Origin: an uncultured Rhizobiaceae bacterium
GTDB taxonomy: Bacteria > Pseudomonadota > Alphaproteobacteria > Rhizobiales > Rhizobiaceae
Reading direction: 5' to 3'
Assembly (NCBI GenBank): GCA_951813045.1
Contig: CATOTF010000002.1
Coordinates: 1,426,001-1,490,000 of the forward strand
DNA length: 64,000 nt
Position 1 is the stretch's first letter. Each line of letters starts with the position of its first letter. The translations under genes and the position numbers were made by a program. The notes beneath the pieces were generated by a model. It did not search any database, was not told the DNA's origin, and worked only from the letters and a program-made list of their open reading frames with translations. Positions 1 through 64,000 of this stretch are shown piece by piece.

Positions 1-166
1 GATGCTGTTCACGGATGTGCGCCAGAACCACCATGTCATCGCGCTGCCGTTGACTAACAGGGCGGTTGTGCCAGGCACGATAACCACGCGATGTAACATT
101 CAGAATATGGCAAAGCCGATCCACCGGAACGTGTTTCCTGTGTTCTTCGACAAACGCAAATCTCAC
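1..166 (-). CDS. IS3-family transposase OrfB, 5' part only
   Basis: This is the start of the DDE integrase subunit of an IS3-family transposase. The readable residues include EEHRKHVPVDRLCHIL and SRGYRAWHNRP, typical of the N-terminal HTH_21 segment that precedes the rve catalytic core. The catalytic DDE residues lie outside the window. The frame opens at a GTG overlapping the orfA stop as GTGA. In IS3 elements OrfB is usually made as an OrfAB fusion by -1 frameshifting. I see no A6G-type slippery run at the junction, so coupled re-initiation at the GTG is a possible alternative. Confidence 0.75.
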   Translation of the reverse strand, partial: MRFAFVEEHRKHVPVDRLCHILNVTSRGYRAWHNRPVSQRQRDDMVVLAHIREQH

Positions 167-438
167 TTGCTTTGACCCGCGAAGAACACTGTTGCCTTCT
201 TTAATATCTCCCTCTCCTCCGTGAGGAGACGAACCTCTCTGCGAAGCCGCTCATTCTCTTTGGCCAGATCAATATCAACCGATGGTGGAAGGTCATCAGG
301 CCGGGATTGTTGTATCCATTTCGATAACGTCGAAAAGCCGACCCCCAAATCTGATGCCACTTGTTTCCGGGTAAGTCCGCTGGTCAGCGCAATACGCACC
401 GCTTCACGCTTGAATTCGTCTGTGTGGCCTCGTGCCAT
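163..438 (-). CDS. IS3-family transposase OrfA (HTH_Tnp_1)
   Basis: This 91-residue protein is a typical IS3 OrfA: a helix-turn-helix DNA-binding domain (about residues 8-45, with TRKQVASDLGVGFSTLSKW) followed by a leucine-zipper-like coiled coil (about 58-82, ENERLRREVRLLTEEREILKK). OrfA recognises the element's terminal repeats and, fused to OrfB, forms the active transposase. The ATG at 438 has an AAGGAGA ribosome-binding site at good distance. The stop codon overlaps the GTG of orfB. The gene looks intact, but whether the whole element is active cannot be judged from this window. Confidence 0.85.
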   Translation of the reverse strand: MARGHTDEFKREAVRIALTSGLTRKQVASDLGVGFSTLSKWIQQSRPDDLPPSVDIDLAKENERLRREVRLLTEEREILKKATVFFAGQSK

Positions 439-588: not shown

Positions 589-682
589 CTTCGATATGAA
601 TTGCCCTGTTGCTAGATATTTTAATCATTAGACTGACAGGTTGGTGCGTGAAGCACAGTCAATGATTTGAGAAGGACTTGTC

Positions 683-2191
683 ATGAAAGAGTTTGTGATT
701 TCTACCATCGTTGCATTCGTAACTGCTGTCGGGGTGATTAGCTCGGCCACTGCACAAGAGGGAAATGTAGAAGCGGGTAAAAAGATATTCAGGAAATGCG
801 CGGCCTGCCACAGTGTCGGCGAGAATGCGAAAAACCGCGTTGGCCCAGTATTGAATGGTGTTGTTGGACGTCCTGCGGGGAGTTTTGCAGGTTACAAGTA
901 CGGAACAGGTGTCCAAGCTGCCAATGCGAAGGGGTTGATCTGGTCTAGGGAAGAGTTGTTCAAGTGGCTGGCGAGCCCGAGAAATTATCTTCGCGACTAT
1001 CTGGATGACCGGAAAGCCAAGGCAAAAATGGCATTCAGGTTGAAGGACGAACAACAGCGCAGGGACGTAATTGCGTATCTGGAAACTTTAGACGGCCCCC
1101 CGGTTTCGGATGAGAAGGCGGCGGATATTACCCACGGTAACACACCATTCAACCCGACAATGGGTAGCGTGGGGAGTGGTGCTGACCCGTTGGATGGTCT
1201 TGAGCGCGTAAGGCAGGAACTCGTCCTGCCTCCCTTTGCACCCAAACATAACCAAGTCGCCAAAGGTGGCCCAAAAGTTGTCGAGGTGGAACTGGTTGTT
1301 GAGGAGAAAAAATGGGTTCTCGACGGTGACGGGACAGAAATCGTCGCACTTACCTTTAACGGCTCGATACCCGCGCCGCTGATTGTCGTTCATGAGGGTG
1401 ATTATGTTGAAGTAACCCTTATTAACCCGGCCACTAATTTGATGGAGCACAATATTGACCTGCACGCGGCAACCGGAGCTTTAGGCGGCGCTGCTATTAC
1501 GACGGTTTCACCCGGCGAACAAACAACCCTGCGCTTTAAGGCAACCAAAGCCGGGGCATTTTTATACCATTGTGCCCCTGAAGGTTCGATGACGCCCTAT
1601 CATGTAACCCACGGTATGACAGGATCAATTCTCGTTTTACCCCGCGACGGTCTGAAAGACGACAAGGGTCAGTCGCTAACATACGACCGCATGTATTATG
1701 TCGGCGAAAACGAATTCTATGTACCGCGTGACGAAAATGGCGATTTCAAAAAATATGAAGCTGCTGGTGAAGATCTGGATGACTGGATACAATCCATGAA
1801 AACATTAATCCCGACCCACGTTGTGTTCAACGGTCGTGTGGGCGCTCTAACGGGTAAGGGAGCAATGAAAGCCAAGGTTGGTGAAAACGTCCTCTTCCTG
1901 CACATGCAGGGAAATAGGGACACTCGTCCACATATCATTGGTGGTCATGGGGATTACGTCTGGGAAACAGGTTCGTTTTCCTCTCCGCCCCTTAAAGATC
2001 AGGAAACATGGTTCATTCGTGGCGGATCAACAGGCGCAGCACTTTATAAGTTCCGTCAACCCGGCGTCTATGCCTACCTCAACCATAATCTTATCGAAGC
2101 GGTGGAACTGGGCGCTGCCGGTCACGTGGTGGTTGAAGGTGAATGGAACGATGATCTGATGAAGCAGGTCTATATCGGTCCGATCAAATAG
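683..2191 (+). CDS. nirK: Copper nitrite reductase with N-terminal cytochrome c domain
   Basis: This periplasmic enzyme reduces nitrite to nitric oxide, the committing step of denitrification. The 502 residues contain a Sec signal (about 1-24), a class I cytochrome c domain (CAACH heme site C39/C42/H43, likely axial Met116), a linker (about 137-195) and a complete two-cupredoxin CuNIR. By pattern, type 1 copper ligands are H256, C297, H307 and M312; type 2 ligands are H261, H296 and H468; catalytic Asp and His are D259 and H422. Ordinary NirK is about 340-380 residues and lacks the heme domain, so the fusion probably supplies its own electron donor. Heme-tethered NirKs are known, mostly with a C-terminal cytochrome; the N-terminal arrangement is less common. 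The ATG at 683 has a GAAGGA ribosome-binding site. nirV follows directly. Confidence 0.95.
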
Positions 2192-2201
2192 ATTGCGACT
2201 G

Positions 2202-2954
2202 ATGGGGCATATTCCAGCTTCAAAAGGCCCCGCGACGGTATCCCGATGGGTTGCCGTCGCGGTGGCAGCGGTGGCCGTCGGATATCTCGGCGCTATCGGG
2301 ACCCCGTATATATCCAAACTTAAAAATCATGATCCGGCGCAATTCCAGGAGTTTGTCAGTCTGGAGATTCAGAGCGGTCGCTTCCTTAATGTTGGTCGTT
2401 ATGAGGTAAGTGCGGCTCAATGGAAGACGTGTGTTGACGAAGGGTACTGTCGAAGTCGTGACAAGTCGCGCCGTGACCGGCTCGATCACCCGGCTACCAA
2501 AGTCAATTGGTTCGACACACAGGACTTCGCTAACTGGATGAGCAATAAGACCGGCCGCAACCTGCGCCTGCCAACTATGGTGGAATGGATGTTGATTGCA
2601 GATGATCACAAGCCAATACCCAAAAAGAAATTATTCAGCGATGCTAGACTGGCTTGGGCTGCTGATTATGACATCACCGCTGAACCCCGGATAAAGACTA
2701 CTCGGCCCGCCGGCGAATTTGGCACAAACAGCCTGGGCCTATCAGACTTTAAAGGTAATGTTTGGGAATGGACATCAACGGAATGTGGTTCAATGGACAC
2801 CGCTTTTCTGGATAATTGCCAGACGGGACGCATCGCTATGGGTGAACACCTGGCTGTCTTAAGCGACCTCGTCAGTGACCCAGGCAATACAAGCTGCGGT
2901 GTTGGTCTTCCGCCCGCAAATCTGGGATTTCGGCTCGTCTATGAGGACGCTTAA
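2202..2954 (+). CDS. nirV: NirV, SUMF1/formylglycine-generating-enzyme-like protein
   Basis: This is a membrane-anchored FGE-sulfatase-fold protein. A hydrophobic segment (about residues 14-32, Val/Ala rich) is followed by the domain, with NVGRYEVSAAQW, HPATKVNW, LRLPTMVEW and the family signature FKGNVWEWT near the C-terminus, ending in LGFRLV. NirV genes commonly follow nirK in Rhizobiales; their exact role in nitrite reductase maturation or function is not settled. The cysteine pair needed for formylglycine formation is not recognisable, so that chemistry is unlikely. The gene begins 10 bases after the nirK stop. I chose ATG 2202 over the in-frame TTG at 2193; neither has a strong ribosome-binding site, suggesting translation coupled to nirK. 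Confidence 0.85.
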   Translation: MGHIPASKGPATVSRWVAVAVAAVAVGYLGAIGTPYISKLKNHDPAQFQEFVSLEIQSGRFLNVGRYEVSAAQWKTCVDEGYCRSRDKSRRDRLDHPATKVNWFDTQDFANWMSNKTGRNLRLPTMVEWMLIADDHKPIPKKKLFSDARLAWAADYDITAEPRIKTTRPAGEFGTNSLGLSDFKGNVWEWTSTECGSMDTAFLDNCQTGRIAMGEHLAVLSDLVSDPGNTSCGVGLPPANLGFRLVYEDA

Positions 2955-7582: not shown

Positions 7583-7669
7583 AGGTTTTTCCTTTTCCTC
7601 AACTGAATTCAGCAAAAAGGAATTAAGGAAGTGTACAATTAGCAGAATTTAACGAGACTAAAGTTCCGT

Positions 7670-8275
7670 TCAATCAATCCGGTAGTTCTTAGGTATAAAA
7701 AATACATAGTCCTTACTCGCCACACCTACGTGACACGTGTGACAATATTTGACCAGCTCCGGGTCATCACCGGTTGTATCACCGTACTGGGTACCGTCGG
7801 GCAAAACCATTATATAACGCCAATCCCCCGTCTCAGTATTTTTGCCGCTTTCCAGCTTCTCCATAACGAACATCGCTCCCATGAAGTTTTTTCCTTCATC
7901 GGTTACCGTGATAGAATCCTTGGCAAATACCGTTCCTGCGGGATATTGCTCTCCCTCAGCCAGCTTTCCATAGTCTTTACCGAGTTCATTTGCGTAATTG
8001 TTGACGAAGCGCTTGCCATGGGTAACAGAAATATAAGGTGCAGAATTATAGCGTTCCCAATTCTGATAATCCTTAATCTCAGATAATTCAGCCAAGCCAT
8101 AGCTTTCAGATAAAATTTCCTTCAGGGAGTCATATATGGTATTTGCTTCATCATGGGTCAGTTTCGCGGGATTCTCGATTGCCACATGGCTATTTTCCTC
8201 AGCATCCTGCGCAAATAATTGCGCACAGCTTGAAAAAAGCAGGGTCGCACCCAATAAATATCGTACCAGTTTCAT
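7670..8275 (-). CDS. Cytochrome P460-family c-type heme protein
   Basis: This 201-residue periplasmic protein has a signal peptide (about 1-22), then a cytochrome P460/cytochrome c'-beta type domain. The family pattern is seen in NWERYNSAPYIS, YPAGTVFAKDS, the METGDWRY-like TETGDWRYIMVLPDG, and the C-terminal heme site CHTCH (C178, C181, H182) followed by KDYVFF. Members bind NO or oxidise hydroxylamine, and some carry a lysine cross-linked to heme. Which residue, if any, plays that part here cannot be told from sequence alone. With nirK about 6 kb away, a role in handling NO or hydroxylamine is a reasonable inference. ATG 8275 has a strong GGAGG site. Confidence 0.8.
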   Translation of the reverse strand: MKLVRYLLGATLLFSSCAQLFAQDAEENSHVAIENPAKLTHDEANTIYDSLKEILSESYGLAELSEIKDYQNWERYNSAPYISVTHGKRFVNNYANELGKDYGKLAEGEQYPAGTVFAKDSITVTDEGKNFMGAMFVMEKLESGKNTETGDWRYIMVLPDGTQYGDTTGDDPELVKYCHTCHVGVASKDYVFFIPKNYRID

Positions 8276-24666: not shown

Positions 24667-25632
24667 TCAGGCAGCCGTGTCTCGCGACAGAAATTCCAAC
24701 CAAAATGGACTTTTCGACGCGAAGAAATCATAGCCCTTACGTTTCACCGTTTTAAGAGCATCCATCTGCTTGAAATCGGTAATTTCGGTAAACTGGCCAG
24801 TTGAGGAACCGGCAAACAGACGTAAACCAAACTGCTCCTTAATTGCACGTGCAGTGGTGTGGTTTCGGTCCCGCCCGTGATCTTCAAAAACCACCAGAGT
24901 ATTGCTTTCCAAAAGATTTCGGGCTCCTTCAAGAGCCGCAATTTCAACACCTTCCACATCCAGCTTCAATACTAGGTTATCTGATTCCGGTTCGATATCT
25001 TCGAGATGCGCCAAAGCAAGTGATTTAACGGTCTCCCGCAACGGCCCGCTGGTTTCCTCAGCGACAATGGATCGTTGTTCATGTTTGCTGCTGCCGTAAA
25101 GTGTCACCAATTGATTGTGCTGATCACTGATCGCCCGGTGGTGTGCCGAGAAACGGTTGGAATTCAATGCACGATTGCGCATTGTGTGGCCAAAGCTTTC
25201 GCTTGATGCTTCAATGGCGATGGCTTTTTGATTACCCGCTTCATCTGAAGAAATCCGGCAAGACCAATATCCAAAATTGGCACCGCAATCGACGAATACA
25301 TAATTGAGCTTCTCTTTTGCACATCGGCGCACAAAACCATCGATTTCCTGTTCATAGGTAAAGCCTGGATTACACAGGATGCTCCAATAGGCGTCACCAT
25401 AGGGAAATTGATAAACTGTGCGGTCGGGAAAATGTATTCTAATATATTTATCACTCGGCAAAAGTGCTGAAATTCCCGCTGCCAACTTCGAAAACCCGGG
25501 GCGTTCAGGAGAATTTGTAACGGTCGCTGCAAGGCGCATTAGTGCAACTCCAGCTCGCTCTCGCCAATTCGCACCGTCGATAGCACCCGTTGACCAATTT
25601 AGATTAATTGCTTGTTGCTTCATGATCGGCAT
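24667..25632 (-). CDS. FkbM-family methyltransferase
   Basis: This is a SAM-dependent methyltransferase of about 321 residues. The FkbM core is visible: YVFVDCGANFGYWSC (motif I), AIAIEASSESFG (acidic loop), VTLYGSS, and the family hallmark LVLKLDVEGVEIAALEGAR with VVFEDHG after it. FkbM enzymes O-methylate sugars, lipids or polyketide-like substrates; this one's substrate is unknown. I chose ATG 25632, which has GGGA 8 bases upstream, over TTG 25653. The gene sits between the small membrane protein gene after nuoD and nuoE, an unusual place for this family. Confidence 0.85.
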   Translation of the reverse strand: MPIMKQQAINLNWSTGAIDGANWRERAGVALMRLAATVTNSPERPGFSKLAAGISALLPSDKYIRIHFPDRTVYQFPYGDAYWSILCNPGFTYEQEIDGFVRRCAKEKLNYVFVDCGANFGYWSCRISSDEAGNQKAIAIEASSESFGHTMRNRALNSNRFSAHHRAISDQHNQLVTLYGSSKHEQRSIVAEETSGPLRETVKSLALAHLEDIEPESDNLVLKLDVEGVEIAALEGARNLLESNTLVVFEDHGRDRNHTTARAIKEQFGLRLFAGSSTGQFTEITDFKQMDALKTVKRKGYDFFASKSPFWLEFLSRDTAA

Positions 25633-25756
25633 CACCAATTCCCGTGTGTTCAACCGAGTATGATAAACAAAAAGAGTTACCGGACTGTTCGAGTTTGAGA
25701 ATAATCAAGCCGCTTAGCTTCGATCTTCAAATGAACTTTTTTCCGCTTATGTGAGA

Positions 25757-62046: not shown

Positions 62047-62823
62047 TCAGTTGATTTGAACAGATTTTTGTTTTCGGCTCTGGTGCAACCTGTAGCTTTC
62101 ACCATTCATCTCCAGGATGTGGACGTGGTGTGTCAGCCGGTCGAGTATTGCGCCCGTTAGGCGTTCTGATCCGAAGACCTCTGTCCATTCGTCGAATGGT
62201 AGATTGGATGTGATGATGATGGAACCGCGTTCATACCGTTGGCTGATTACTTCGAACAGCAACTCCGCCCCGGTTTTGGAGAGAGGGACGAAGCCCAGTT
62301 CGTCAATGATCAGCAGGTCTTGAGCTGCCAGTTGTTTTTGATGCCGTTGCAAGCGACGTTCATCAACGGCCTCGATCATCTCATGAACCAGTGCAGCAGC
62401 CGTGGTGAAGCGGACTTTCATCCCCTTTTGGCAGGCAGCCAGTCCAAGGCCGAGGGCAACATGGGTTTTGCCGGTTCCACTTGGTCCTAACGCGATGATG
62501 TTTTGGCGTTTCGCAGCGTACTCGCAACGGGCCAGTTCCATCACGAGCACCTTGTTCACTGACGGGATCGTTTTGAAGTCAAAGCTGTCGAGGCTCTTGG
62601 TTGCCGGGAACTTCGCAGCTTTGATGCGTCGCTCCACCATTCGGCGCTCACGTTCAATCAGCTCCAACTCACATAACCGCAGGAGATATTGGACATGATC
62701 CTTATTCTCAGCGGCACATTGTTGGGCCTGTTTGGTATATTCACTCTGGAAGGTTGGCAGCCGAAGTTTGGTCAGATGATGTTTGAGTAGAACTTGCGGT
62801 GTATCGGTAACAGTGTCGTTCAT
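62047..62823 (-). CDS. istB: IS21-family helper ATPase IstB
   Basis: IstB is the AAA+ ATPase that assists IstA in target selection and strand transfer. The 258-residue protein has an N-terminal helical part (about 1-90), Walker A GPSGTGKTH, Walker B DLLIIDELGFVP, the sensor SIIITSNLPFDEW and RLTHHVHILEMNGESYR near the end. Its length is standard. The ATG overlaps the istA stop by four bases (ATGA), so the two are coupled. Confidence 0.93.
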   Translation of the reverse strand: MNDTVTDTPQVLLKHHLTKLRLPTFQSEYTKQAQQCAAENKDHVQYLLRLCELELIERERRMVERRIKAAKFPATKSLDSFDFKTIPSVNKVLVMELARCEYAAKRQNIIALGPSGTGKTHVALGLGLAACQKGMKVRFTTAAALVHEMIEAVDERRLQRHQKQLAAQDLLIIDELGFVPLSKTGAELLFEVISQRYERGSIIITSNLPFDEWTEVFGSERLTGAILDRLTHHVHILEMNGESYRLHQSRKQKSVQIN

Positions 62824-64000
62824 GCTGCCGCCTCCGACAACAGCACGGCATAGCTGGCAGGTTTTGTCGTCTCGACCACCGCTTTGGGCAAATAGGGGTA
62901 GATGTCGAGATCAAGCCTGGGCGGTCGCCGCTCGATCCGGCACAGAATAAGGTGCTTGATCGCATCATAGCCAATGGCACCCAGATCCAAAGCTTGTTGG
63001 ATTGCGGCGTGAACGTGCTCCAGCTCAAAAGTTTCCAGCAGACGCAGGATCTGAACATACTCGCGTTTTCCCGCCTTACCCATGCGGGCTTCTAATAAAC
63101 GATGAAGGATCGCAAATGCATCGGGTAAACCCCAGCCTTGCAATGGTGCCGCCTGATCGAGAGCACCTACCTTTTGTTCCAGCAAGGGCAGATAGTGAAG
63201 CGGGTCGAAGATCATGTCTGCCTTCTCATAAGACCGACGATGGCGGGCAATAATCTCGGTTCCACTGCCAATCACAACCTCATGGATGTAACCGCGAACC
63301 TGAACCTCATGATGGGCAAAGGCGACAGGAACGGAGTAATCATTATTGCGGTAGCGGATCATCGAGATTGACGTTGCCCGCGTGCTAAACTTTTCACACG
63401 CGTCGTATGGCGTTGGGGGCAATGCCATCAGCGCGTCCAGGTCTCTCAGCAATCGTTCACCAATACTCTCACCATGTCCGCGAACAACATCATCCTGACG
63501 CTTCAGGCAGCATTCTTCCAACCAGGCGTTCAAGGCATCAAAGCTGTCGAACCGTGGGGCTGGGATGAGAAAGTTCCTGCGACCGTAACCAATGACGCCT
63601 TCGACATTCCCTTTATCATTGCCTTTGCCAGGGCGACCAAACTTATCCTCAAACAGATAGTGCGATTGTAGCTCTGAGAAAGTTCTCGTGCGTATCCGTT
63701 TGCCACCGCCCAGGATCTTTGCAACTGCAATCACGGTGTTGTCGTAGAGCATCGACAACGGCACACCGCCGAAGAAAGCAAACGCAGCATTGTGACCGTC
63801 ACAGAAGGCTTCTGTTGTTTCCGCCGGATACGCCTTCATGAAGAACGCATCCGAATGCGGCAACGATATAGCGATGTAATGCAGCTTGCGTTCGACACCG
63901 TCGATCACGCCGAACGTCTCACCAAAATCGACCTGAGCATGGCCGGGCGCGTGAACCAGAGGAACAAACACCTCCTGGGTTCGTCTTTGCTTCTCACGCA
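62820..64000 (-). CDS. istA: IS21-family transposase IstA, C-terminal part
   Basis: IstA is the DDE-type transposase. The window shows about 393 residues, starting in mid-protein; the frame runs off the right edge. Visible parts of the rve catalytic core are HAPGHAQVDFGET (first Asp), FFGGVPLSMLYDNTVIAV (second Asp) and KGNVEGVIGYGRRNFL (catalytic Glu), followed by the C-terminal Mu-type region. The N-terminal helix-turn-helix is outside the window. No stop or frameshift is seen in this part. Confidence 0.9.
   Translation of the reverse strand, partial: REKQRRTQEVFVPLVHAPGHAQVDFGETFGVIDGVERKLHYIAISLPHSDAFFMKAYPAETTEAFCDGHNAAFAFFGGVPLSMLYDNTVIAVAKILGGGKRIRTRTFSELQSHYLFEDKFGRPGKGNDKGNVEGVIGYGRRNFLIPAPRFDSFDALNAWLEECCLKRQDDVVRGHGESIGERLLRDLDALMALPPTPYDACEKFSTRATSISMIRYRNNDYSVPVAFAHHEVQVRGYIHEVVIGSGTEIIARHRRSYEKADMIFDPLHYLPLLEQKVGALDQAAPLQGWGLPDAFAILHRLLEARMGKAGKREYVQILRLLETFELEHVHAAIQQALDLGAIGYDAIKHLILCRIERRPPRLDLDIYPYLPKAVVETTKPASYAVLLSEAAA

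Follow-up and report, generated by a model that had tools for sequence, protein, structure and literature searches.

Identification of the fused gene

The gene described here was found in a window of 64,000 nucleotides, which is the whole stretch of DNA that was analyzed, from the genome of an uncultured Rhizobiaceae bacterium. An open frame of 502 amino acids was read from the sequence (Table 1). The chain starts with a signal peptide and a cytochrome c550-like domain, and a linker of 37 residues connects these to a class I NirK core, which is complete. In the PDB comparison, the best solved relatives of the front part were cytochromes c2, and no nitrite reductase was named among the best 60 of the 106 PDB sequences that matched it. 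Both the CXXCH motif (C39-C42-H43) and the distal Met (M116) of a class I cytochrome c were present. The initial annotation had proposed this domain content, with the CAACH haem motif, Met116 and a complete NirK, and it was borne out by the Pfam and NCBIfam matches and by the conserved residues. The GC content was 0.51 for the gene and 0.498 for the window, which gave no sign of recent transfer within the window. In addition, two other features were read by eye on the minus strand of the window. An FkbM-like methyltransferase gene was located inside the run of NADH dehydrogenase (nuo) genes, between nuoE-like and nuoD-like genes (24667-25653), and an IS21-type pair (IstA/IstB-like) was located at the right end (62047-63971). 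Papers are cited below by PMC number and from excerpts.

Table 1. Features of the fused gene, its surroundings and related loci. Positions are those of the window unless a locus is named.
Feature	Positions	Strand	Basis
Ribosome-binding-like GAAGGA, ahead of the ATG at 683	671..676	+	read from sequence
Fused nirK, 502 aa, ATG start	683..2191	+	read from sequence
Signal peptide, Sec-like, without twin arginine, residues 1-24	683..754	+	sequence; type and cleavage site read by eye
Cytochrome c550/c2-like domain, residues 25-136	755..1090	+	Pfam Cytochrom_C (residues 29-136), 36.4 bits, cut-off 21.3; NCBIfam cytochrome c-550 CycA model NF043008 (residues 1-137), 82.5 bits, below cut-off 240; PDB; tree
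CAACH motif for binding of haem c, residues 39-43	797..811	+	C39, C42 and H43 in 18/18 fused domains
Met116, probable distal haem ligand	1028..1030	+	18/18 fused domains; role inferred from family
Linker, 37 residues (137-173)	1091..1201	+	78% of residues are P, A, G, S, T, D, E, K, Q or N
His151 of linker motif	1133..1135	+	alignment of fusions
NirK core, residues 174-496	1202..2170	+	NCBIfam TIGR02376 (Cu nitrite reductase), 483.6 bits, cut-off 296.3; Pfam multicopper-oxidase models (residues 217-488); best PDB match 5akr_A, a two-domain NirK, E 1.1e-155
YHC...HxxxxM segment, residues 295-312, with His296, Cys297, His307, Met312	1565..1618	+	17/17 fusions
Tyr497, C-terminal tail	2171..2173	+	17/17 fusions
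NirV-like gene (FGE-sulfatase domain), next downstream	2193..2954	+	Pfam PF03781, 93.6 bits
Cytochrome P460 family gene	7670-8275	-	Pfam, 48.5 bits; 5.5 kb from fused nirK
IS3-type transposase fragment	163-438	-	Pfam/NCBIfam; ~245 bases upstream of fused gene
P460 genes in four other fusion loci	L077:2899-4140; L080:4092-4676; L081:3894-4472; L086:2871-3497 and 7608-8207	same as fused nirK	PF16694
Stand-alone cytochrome c of this genome (L198; also L002)	G000:C2:4284250-4284582		73% identical to fused domain

Occurrence of the fusion

Eighteen distinct fused genes were found in 18 genomes, including that of the window. The carriers were members of the Rhizobiaceae group, Hyphomicrobiaceae, Rhodobacteraceae, Stappiaceae, Neomegalonema, Granulosicoccus, and Nitrospirota. 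The other fusions kept the same domain order at 60-76% identity (15 of the 17 others aligned). Their frequency was monitored in overlapping taxon samples, whose counts are not summable. In the genus, the fusion was found in 3 of 15 genomes, and a plain NirK in two others. In the family sample, NirK was matched at E 1e-60 in 113 of 297 genomes, three of which carried the fusion. NirK was found in 80 of 397 genomes of the order sample, with two fusions (the window and G324), and in 13 of 385 genomes of the class sample, where the window was the sole fusion. A match at E 1e-40 was obtained in 19 of 245 Nitrospirota genomes; four had the fusion, and one of these was new (G1193). The fusion was also present in 3 of the 34 NirK genomes in the family of the Sulfitobacter carrier (275 searched), in 1 of 20 in the family of the Roseibium carrier (87 searched), and in 1 of 4 in the order of Granulosicoccus (48 searched). 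A contig scan with peptide patterns from the fusions gave 21 loci, with 17 full fusions in 16 genomes.

A set of 149 distinct NirK-like frames was sorted, which was biased by the deliberate search for fusions. CXXCH stood before the core in 18, behind the core in 2, and was missing from 129. The two frames with CXXCH behind the core (L143 and L144) were distant Nitrospirota NirKs, 36-39% identical, with the more usual order. Among 193 plasmid NirK records, one covered 80% of the query, and its frame was without CXXCH. None of 15 further long NirK frames (461-696 aa) had CXXCH. The fusion order was rare among NirKs. The initial annotation had allowed that this order might prove common in the clade, and the outcome was mixed: the order was carried by 3 of the 113 NirK genomes in the family sample, yet it defined one lineage, and all 41 plain NirK rows of the core tree fell outside it.

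The complete chromosome of Nitrospira moscoviensis had two fused copies (L088 and L089), with identical cores and equal full-length scores. Identical NirK_1 and NirK_6 copies were reported for this organism, and the excerpt names no cytochrome domain (PMC6606698). These two would be the fused copies. In a Nitrospira MAG (L091:5980-7266), the fused gene was cut by an in-frame TAG, which could be the result of decay or of a sequencing error.

Conserved residues and linker

The core counts were based on 17 fusions, and L091 was omitted because the TAG cuts its core. H256, D259, H261, H296, C297, H307, M312, H417, I419, and H468 were present in all 17 fused cores and were the same as in two-domain NirKs. 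We take these ten positions to be the T1 and T2 ligands, AspCAT and HisCAT. Other positions were specific, or nearly so, to the fusions. Thr274, Thr304, and Trp368 were fixed in 17/17 fusions and were found in 0/98 two-domain rows, and Leu260 was found in 17/17 and 5/98, respectively. In the tail, Tyr497 was conserved in all 17 fusions, and none of 93 two-domain tails had a Tyr in this position. A Tyr elsewhere in the tail was found in 11 of the 93, and 6 of the original 99 were without the anchor motif. In the PDB alignment, residues 304 and 368 corresponded to residues 142 and 206 of AcNiR, which are presumably near the partner-docking surface. A variant of the T1 loop (Cys-x9-His), in which Tyr306 replaces the Trp of many NirKs, was found in 17/17 fusions. 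It was dropped as a fusion-specific feature, since it was also present in 34/98 two-domain rows.

The linker was 31-39 residues long in 16 aligned fusions (L091 and L130 left out). The motif [ST]HG[DNM] was found in 14 of them, and the two rows without it were from Nitrospirota. The fused chain had no linker behind the core. In RpNiR, the gate residue Tyr323 sits in the linker (PMC13324648), and in HdNiR, His27 of the N-terminal peptide anchors the substrate (PMC7201279). By analogy with these residues, it is our guess that His151 or Tyr497 might act as a gate.

Phylogeny and origin

Among 152 NirK frames, 22 duplicates were dropped. Of the 130 that remained, 12 had an identity of <45% and did not enter the first core tree. 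That tree included two class II outgroup rows, and their very long branch fell inside the fusions, with the fusion label needing two changes. It was rejected, and the core tree was rebuilt without the two class II rows and L108. Two-domain rows that were >82% identical were dropped, from 98 to 41 (total rows from 115 to 58). In the rebuilt tree, the 17 fused cores formed one side of a branch, opposite the 41 two-domain cores, with a support of 100/97. In the cytochrome tree (51 rows), the 18 fused domains and the stand-alone cytochrome L198 formed one side of a branch (97/89). The roots were not inferred by the trees; the core tree was rooted with a chosen outgroup and the cytochrome tree at its midpoint.

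In both trees, Roseibium grouped with Neomegalonema, and Granulosicoccus grouped with Nitrospirota. The trees disagreed on one placement: the core tree put Rhodobacteraceae together with L079 within the Rhizobiaceae group, and the cytochrome tree put Rhodobacteraceae beside Granulosicoccus and Nitrospirota. Since the two trees branched largely alike, the two domains appear to have stayed together across families and phyla. The stand-alone cytochromes closest to the fused domains came from Rhizobiaceae-group genomes. In the four Nitrospirota carriers, no cytochrome of the fused type was found beyond the fused one at E 1e-12. The gene probably arose by one fusion in an alphaproteobacterium, with later transfer of the whole gene; we infer the alphaproteobacterial origin, because the cytochrome tree has a midpoint root only.

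L198 is a stand-alone cytochrome c of the same genome as the window, and it branched inside the fused cytochrome clade. Forcing the fused domains together without L198 cost 21 log units (p-AU 0.044). Trp95, which L198 has, was found in 18/18 fused domains and in 3 stand-alone domains (of the 19 closest, taken from 33). This placement and the shared Trp95 made it likely, although not firm, that L198 was once the front domain of a fused nitrite reductase and was then released.

Export signal

A twin-arginine motif (RR before the hydrophobic stretch) was found in 90 of 99 two-domain frames versus 1 of 17 fusions (L087, with MRR at the start). The nine two-domain frames without RR by this rule comprised five with RR by a stricter rule, one with RH, and three with none. 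The stricter rule alone gave 55/99 two-domain frames versus 2/17 fusions (L087, and L130, where RR precedes a start that is unclear), because it misses the common TRRxAL form. As read from the sequences, the signals of the fused forms are Sec-like, and those of most plain class I NirKs in the set are of the twin-arginine type. Since cells attach haem c outside the cytoplasm, a Sec signal is expected for the fusion. In cNosZ, a cytochrome c fusion is likewise reported to go with export by Sec rather than Tat (PMC8139620). No split in signal peptides was found between NirK clades I and II (PMC4770552); the present difference separates fused from plain cores, all of the class I kind.

Gene neighborhood and nitric oxide reductase

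The neighbors of 18 fusion loci were compared with those of 40 two-domain control loci (L210-L249, with approximately 6 kb on each side and some cut by contig ends); the flanks of the fusion loci varied, with total sizes of 3 to 13.5 kb. All frames were searched with profiles. Those for NirV, 5-aminolevulinate synthase, Dps, P460, PAS, and Msr were built from fusion loci, and those for pseudoazurin, Crp/Fnr, NnrS, and NorB mostly from controls; NirK was recovered in 40/40 controls. An earlier clustering had undercounted the neighbors (NirK in 22 of the 40 controls, and 13, 15, 21, and 9 for pseudoazurin, Crp/Fnr, NnrS, and NorB), and it was superseded by the profile counts. The controls were Rhizobiales and Rhodobacterales only, whereas the fusions span phyla, and the counts are not independent because the fusion loci are partly near-copies (L082-L085).

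With these limits, a NirV homologue was found in 14/18 fusion loci versus 39/40 controls. 5-Aminolevulinate synthase and a Dps-like ferritin were each found in 8/18 fusion loci (L077, L078, and L080-L085 in both cases) versus 0/40 controls. TIGR01821 named three of the eight synthases, and all eight loci belonged to the Rhizobiaceae/Rhodobacteraceae/Hyphomicrobiaceae part, with the window not among them. The presence of this synthase fits a haem enzyme. Cytochrome P460 and a PAS protein were each found in 4/18 fusion loci, and MsrA and MsrB in 3/18 each, versus 0/40 controls in every case. In L077, L080, and L081, the genes for P460, 5-aminolevulinate synthase, nirK, and nirV were on one strand within approximately 6 kb. 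Pseudoazurin, named by TIGR02375, was found in 0/18 fusion loci versus 21/40 controls. The same trend was observed for a Crp/Fnr-type regulator, whose models score below their cut-offs (0/18 versus 22/40), for an NnrS-like protein, named from the sequence (1/18 versus 25/40), and for NorB (0/18 versus 10/40). From this set, the window had only nirV and the P460 gene, which was unmatched by the P460 profile. An IS3-type fragment lies upstream of the fused gene, and therefore the upstream neighborhood may have been rearranged.

In whole genomes, a close cNorB match was found in 1/18 fusion genomes (Roseibium, 76%) versus 14/40 controls, one of which was the query source; the MAGs behind the absences may be incomplete. 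Granulosicoccus gave a distant NorB match (32%) in a 777-aa frame, which is the size of the quinol type. The NorB query came from beside a control nirK. Its best PDB match, at E 6.3e-232, was subunit B of a nitric-oxide reductase (4xyd_A), and NCBIfam gave weak cbb3-type matches only and no name. Quinol-type enzymes were partly covered, because their PDB members matched the query at E 4e-38 to 1e-19. The occurrence of nir without nor is not unusual, for nirK above all (PMC8756737). The scarcity of cNor in the fusion genomes was suggestive rather than telling.

Proposed function

We propose, with a probability of roughly 60%, that the fused protein works in the periplasm as a copper nitrite reductase and carries a captive donor, whose tethered haem would feed type 1 copper. 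The observed basis consists of the domain order, the intact ligands, one clade per domain, the signals without RR, and the absence of donor and denitrification neighbors. This proposal is supported by the intact haem and copper ligands of 18 and 17 fusions, respectively, by the fusion-only core residues Thr304, Trp368, and Tyr497, and by the missing pseudoazurin near the fusions compared with the controls.

In this mechanism, a single in-frame fusion would have placed an alphaproteobacterial cytochrome c550 gene ahead of a class I nirK, and the Sec-type signal of the cytochrome would have taken the place of the twin-arginine signal. The chain would be exported unfolded, and haem would be added outside the cytoplasm, as for c-type cytochromes generally. 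The core would fold, take up copper, and presumably form the usual trimer. The haem would receive electrons from bc1 or another membrane donor, swing on the linker, and reduce the type 1 copper of its own chain or of a neighbor. The electron would then pass to type 2 copper, where nitrite would be reduced to nitric oxide. The extended linker would measure approximately 110-135 Å (a rough value, at 3.5 Å per residue). Such a linker should be able to span a NirK trimer, so that its length would not be what limits a productive contact.

In C-terminal haem NirKs, the haem lies approximately 10 Å from type 1 copper (PMC13324648, PMC7201279). However, in HdNiR, the closest known N-terminal tether, the extra copper is approximately 24 Å from the core T1Cu (PMC7201279), and for this reason direct haem-to-copper transfer is conjectural. 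The activity of tethered NirKs is reported to be an order of magnitude below that of two-domain forms (PMC13324648), which also counts against a captive donor. The initial annotation had suggested a self-sufficient enzyme with a different electron-entry geometry. We keep this as a working hypothesis. It would be consistent with the missing pseudoazurin neighbors and the fusion-specific residues, and the cupredoxin tether of HdNiR urges caution.

Other explanations were weighed against the captive donor. The cytochrome could be a docking or regulatory module that is far from T1Cu as in HdNiR, with separate cytochromes donating electrons and with His151 or Tyr497 gating type 2 copper. The geometry of HdNiR and its substrate-anchoring His27 (PMC7201279), the gatekeeper Tyr323 of RpNiR (PMC13324648), the fusion-specific linker His, and the tail Tyr would fit such a module, and the genome of the window has stand-alone cytochromes of this kind. 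However, pseudoazurin was absent from the 18 fusion loci, all haem ligands were kept, and the two Nitrospirota rows of the alignment were without the HG linker motif. We consider a docking or regulatory role less likely than direct donation. As for a chimeric assembly or a chance-joined frame, most named carriers were MAGs, and several came from bins with one naming scheme. The window genome, however, consisted of 2 contigs and was 98.8% complete, the N. moscoviensis chromosome, which is complete, and the R. sediminis strain carried the same order, and each domain formed one clade. This candidate was ruled out by the recurrence of the order at 60-76% identity, and its chance is close to nil.

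A reverse or NO-balancing function outside denitrification was also considered, in which NO would be converted to nitrite at type 2 copper with the electron leaving by the haem, or NO would be passed to a neighboring P460. The low cNorB count in fusion genomes, the P460 genes near the fusion in four loci, the nitrite oxidizer N. moscoviensis among the carriers, and the NO oxidation suggested for Nitrosomonas NirK (PMC10999283) are consistent with this idea. However, the active-site residues were the same as in two-domain NirKs, nir without nor is not unusual as noted above, and cNorB was absent from 26/40 controls too. The P460 gene of the window also lies 5.5 kb from the fused gene, on the other strand, and is unmatched by the profile. 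An NO-balancing function is thus quite improbable. In a broader and equally speculative form, the fusions might be a separate mobile NirK lineage outside denitrification that arose by one cytochrome c550 capture. The enzyme would be a nitrite/NO-to-cytochrome c converter, with its haem wired to the respiratory cytochrome pool, gated by His151 and Tyr497, and in places co-expressed with P460 and haem synthesis. It would let nitrite oxidizers such as Nitrospira set or remove NO without an NO reductase. In the genome of the window, this lineage might also have given its cytochrome back as a free carrier. We regard this as a long shot, and the nitrite reductase with a captive donor is preferred.

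The fusions present a tethering order in which the haem is directly before the core, in a gene group that crosses two phyla. They are natural variants that could settle whether the tethered domains of CuNiRs really donate electrons. In addition, they give a concrete biochemical handle on the role of NirK in nitrite-oxidizing Nitrospira, which was called undetermined (PMC6606698). As in cNosZ, the cytochrome fusion appears to be tied to a change from a Tat-type to a Sec-type signal, and this rule could be tested across copper reductases.

Comparison with known systems

The fused cytochrome domain groups with the alphaproteobacterial cytochromes c550 (CycA). However, CycA is a stand-alone carrier, and the cut-off of its model was not reached here. 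The two-domain class I NirKs of Rhizobiaceae and Rhodobacteraceae share the core, which is mostly 58-69% identical, the metal and active-site residues, and the NirV neighbor. In contrast, they have no cytochrome, their signals are mostly twin-arginine, and genes for pseudoazurin, NnrS-like and Crp/Fnr-type proteins, and Nor often adjoin them. In cNosZ, the cytochrome is at the C-terminus. Like the present protein, cNosZ is a copper reductase of denitrification with a cytochrome c fusion and Sec instead of Tat export (PMC8139620), but it is a different enzyme.

RpNiR and PhNiR, the C-terminal cytochrome c-tethered CuNiRs, share with the fusion a haem c domain that is tethered to a two-cupredoxin CuNiR by a long linker, which has 36 residues in RpNiR (PMC13324648). 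Their haem domain is behind the core, whereas here it is before the core (residues 29-136 versus 174-496). Their gatekeeper Tyr323 is in the linker; here the linker is at the other end, and Tyr497 is the conserved residue of the tail. HdNiR from Hyphomicrobium denitrificans likewise has an extra redox domain before the core. However, that domain is a cupredoxin and the enzyme is a hexamer (PMC7201279), whereas the extra domain here is a cytochrome c. A Chloroflexi ORF likewise joins cytochrome c and NirK, but it also has an N-terminal cupredoxin and a cytochrome c551/552-like domain of the C1 type, which set it apart by description (PMC8756737). It came from a few identical MAGs and is a possible assembly artefact according to its authors (PMC8756737).

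According to the initial annotation, the haem is C-terminal in most of the haem-tethered NirKs that are known. This agrees with a survey of 267 sequences, in which there were many C-terminal c-haem extensions and the N-terminal ones were cupredoxin or membrane domains (PMC4770552). In the characterized and surveyed enzymes, the cytochrome is C-terminal and the cupredoxin is at either end (PMC4770552, PMC6400189, PMC7201279, PMC9358711, PMC13324648). Earlier papers state in general terms that CuNiRs can bear an additional haem or cupredoxin at the N- or C-terminus (PMC13324648, citing Ellis 2007; PMC6400189), N- or C-terminal azurin or cytochrome domains have been mentioned (PMC9358711), and rare proteobacterial ORFs join cytochrome c with NirK (PMC8756737, citing Bertini 2006). 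A search of openly licensed papers for nirK with an 'N-terminal cytochrome c' gave none, and in the excerpts of such papers the order with haem directly before the core was not found described as a lineage. In its broad sense, 'class III' covers CuNiRs whose two-domain core is joined, in the N- or C-terminal region, by a further domain with haem or T1Cu (PMC6400189). The present protein, with a two-domain core and an extra haem domain, falls within this three-domain definition. Without claiming that it has never been seen, we would describe the fusion, from its sequence, as a variant of the three-domain CuNiRs.
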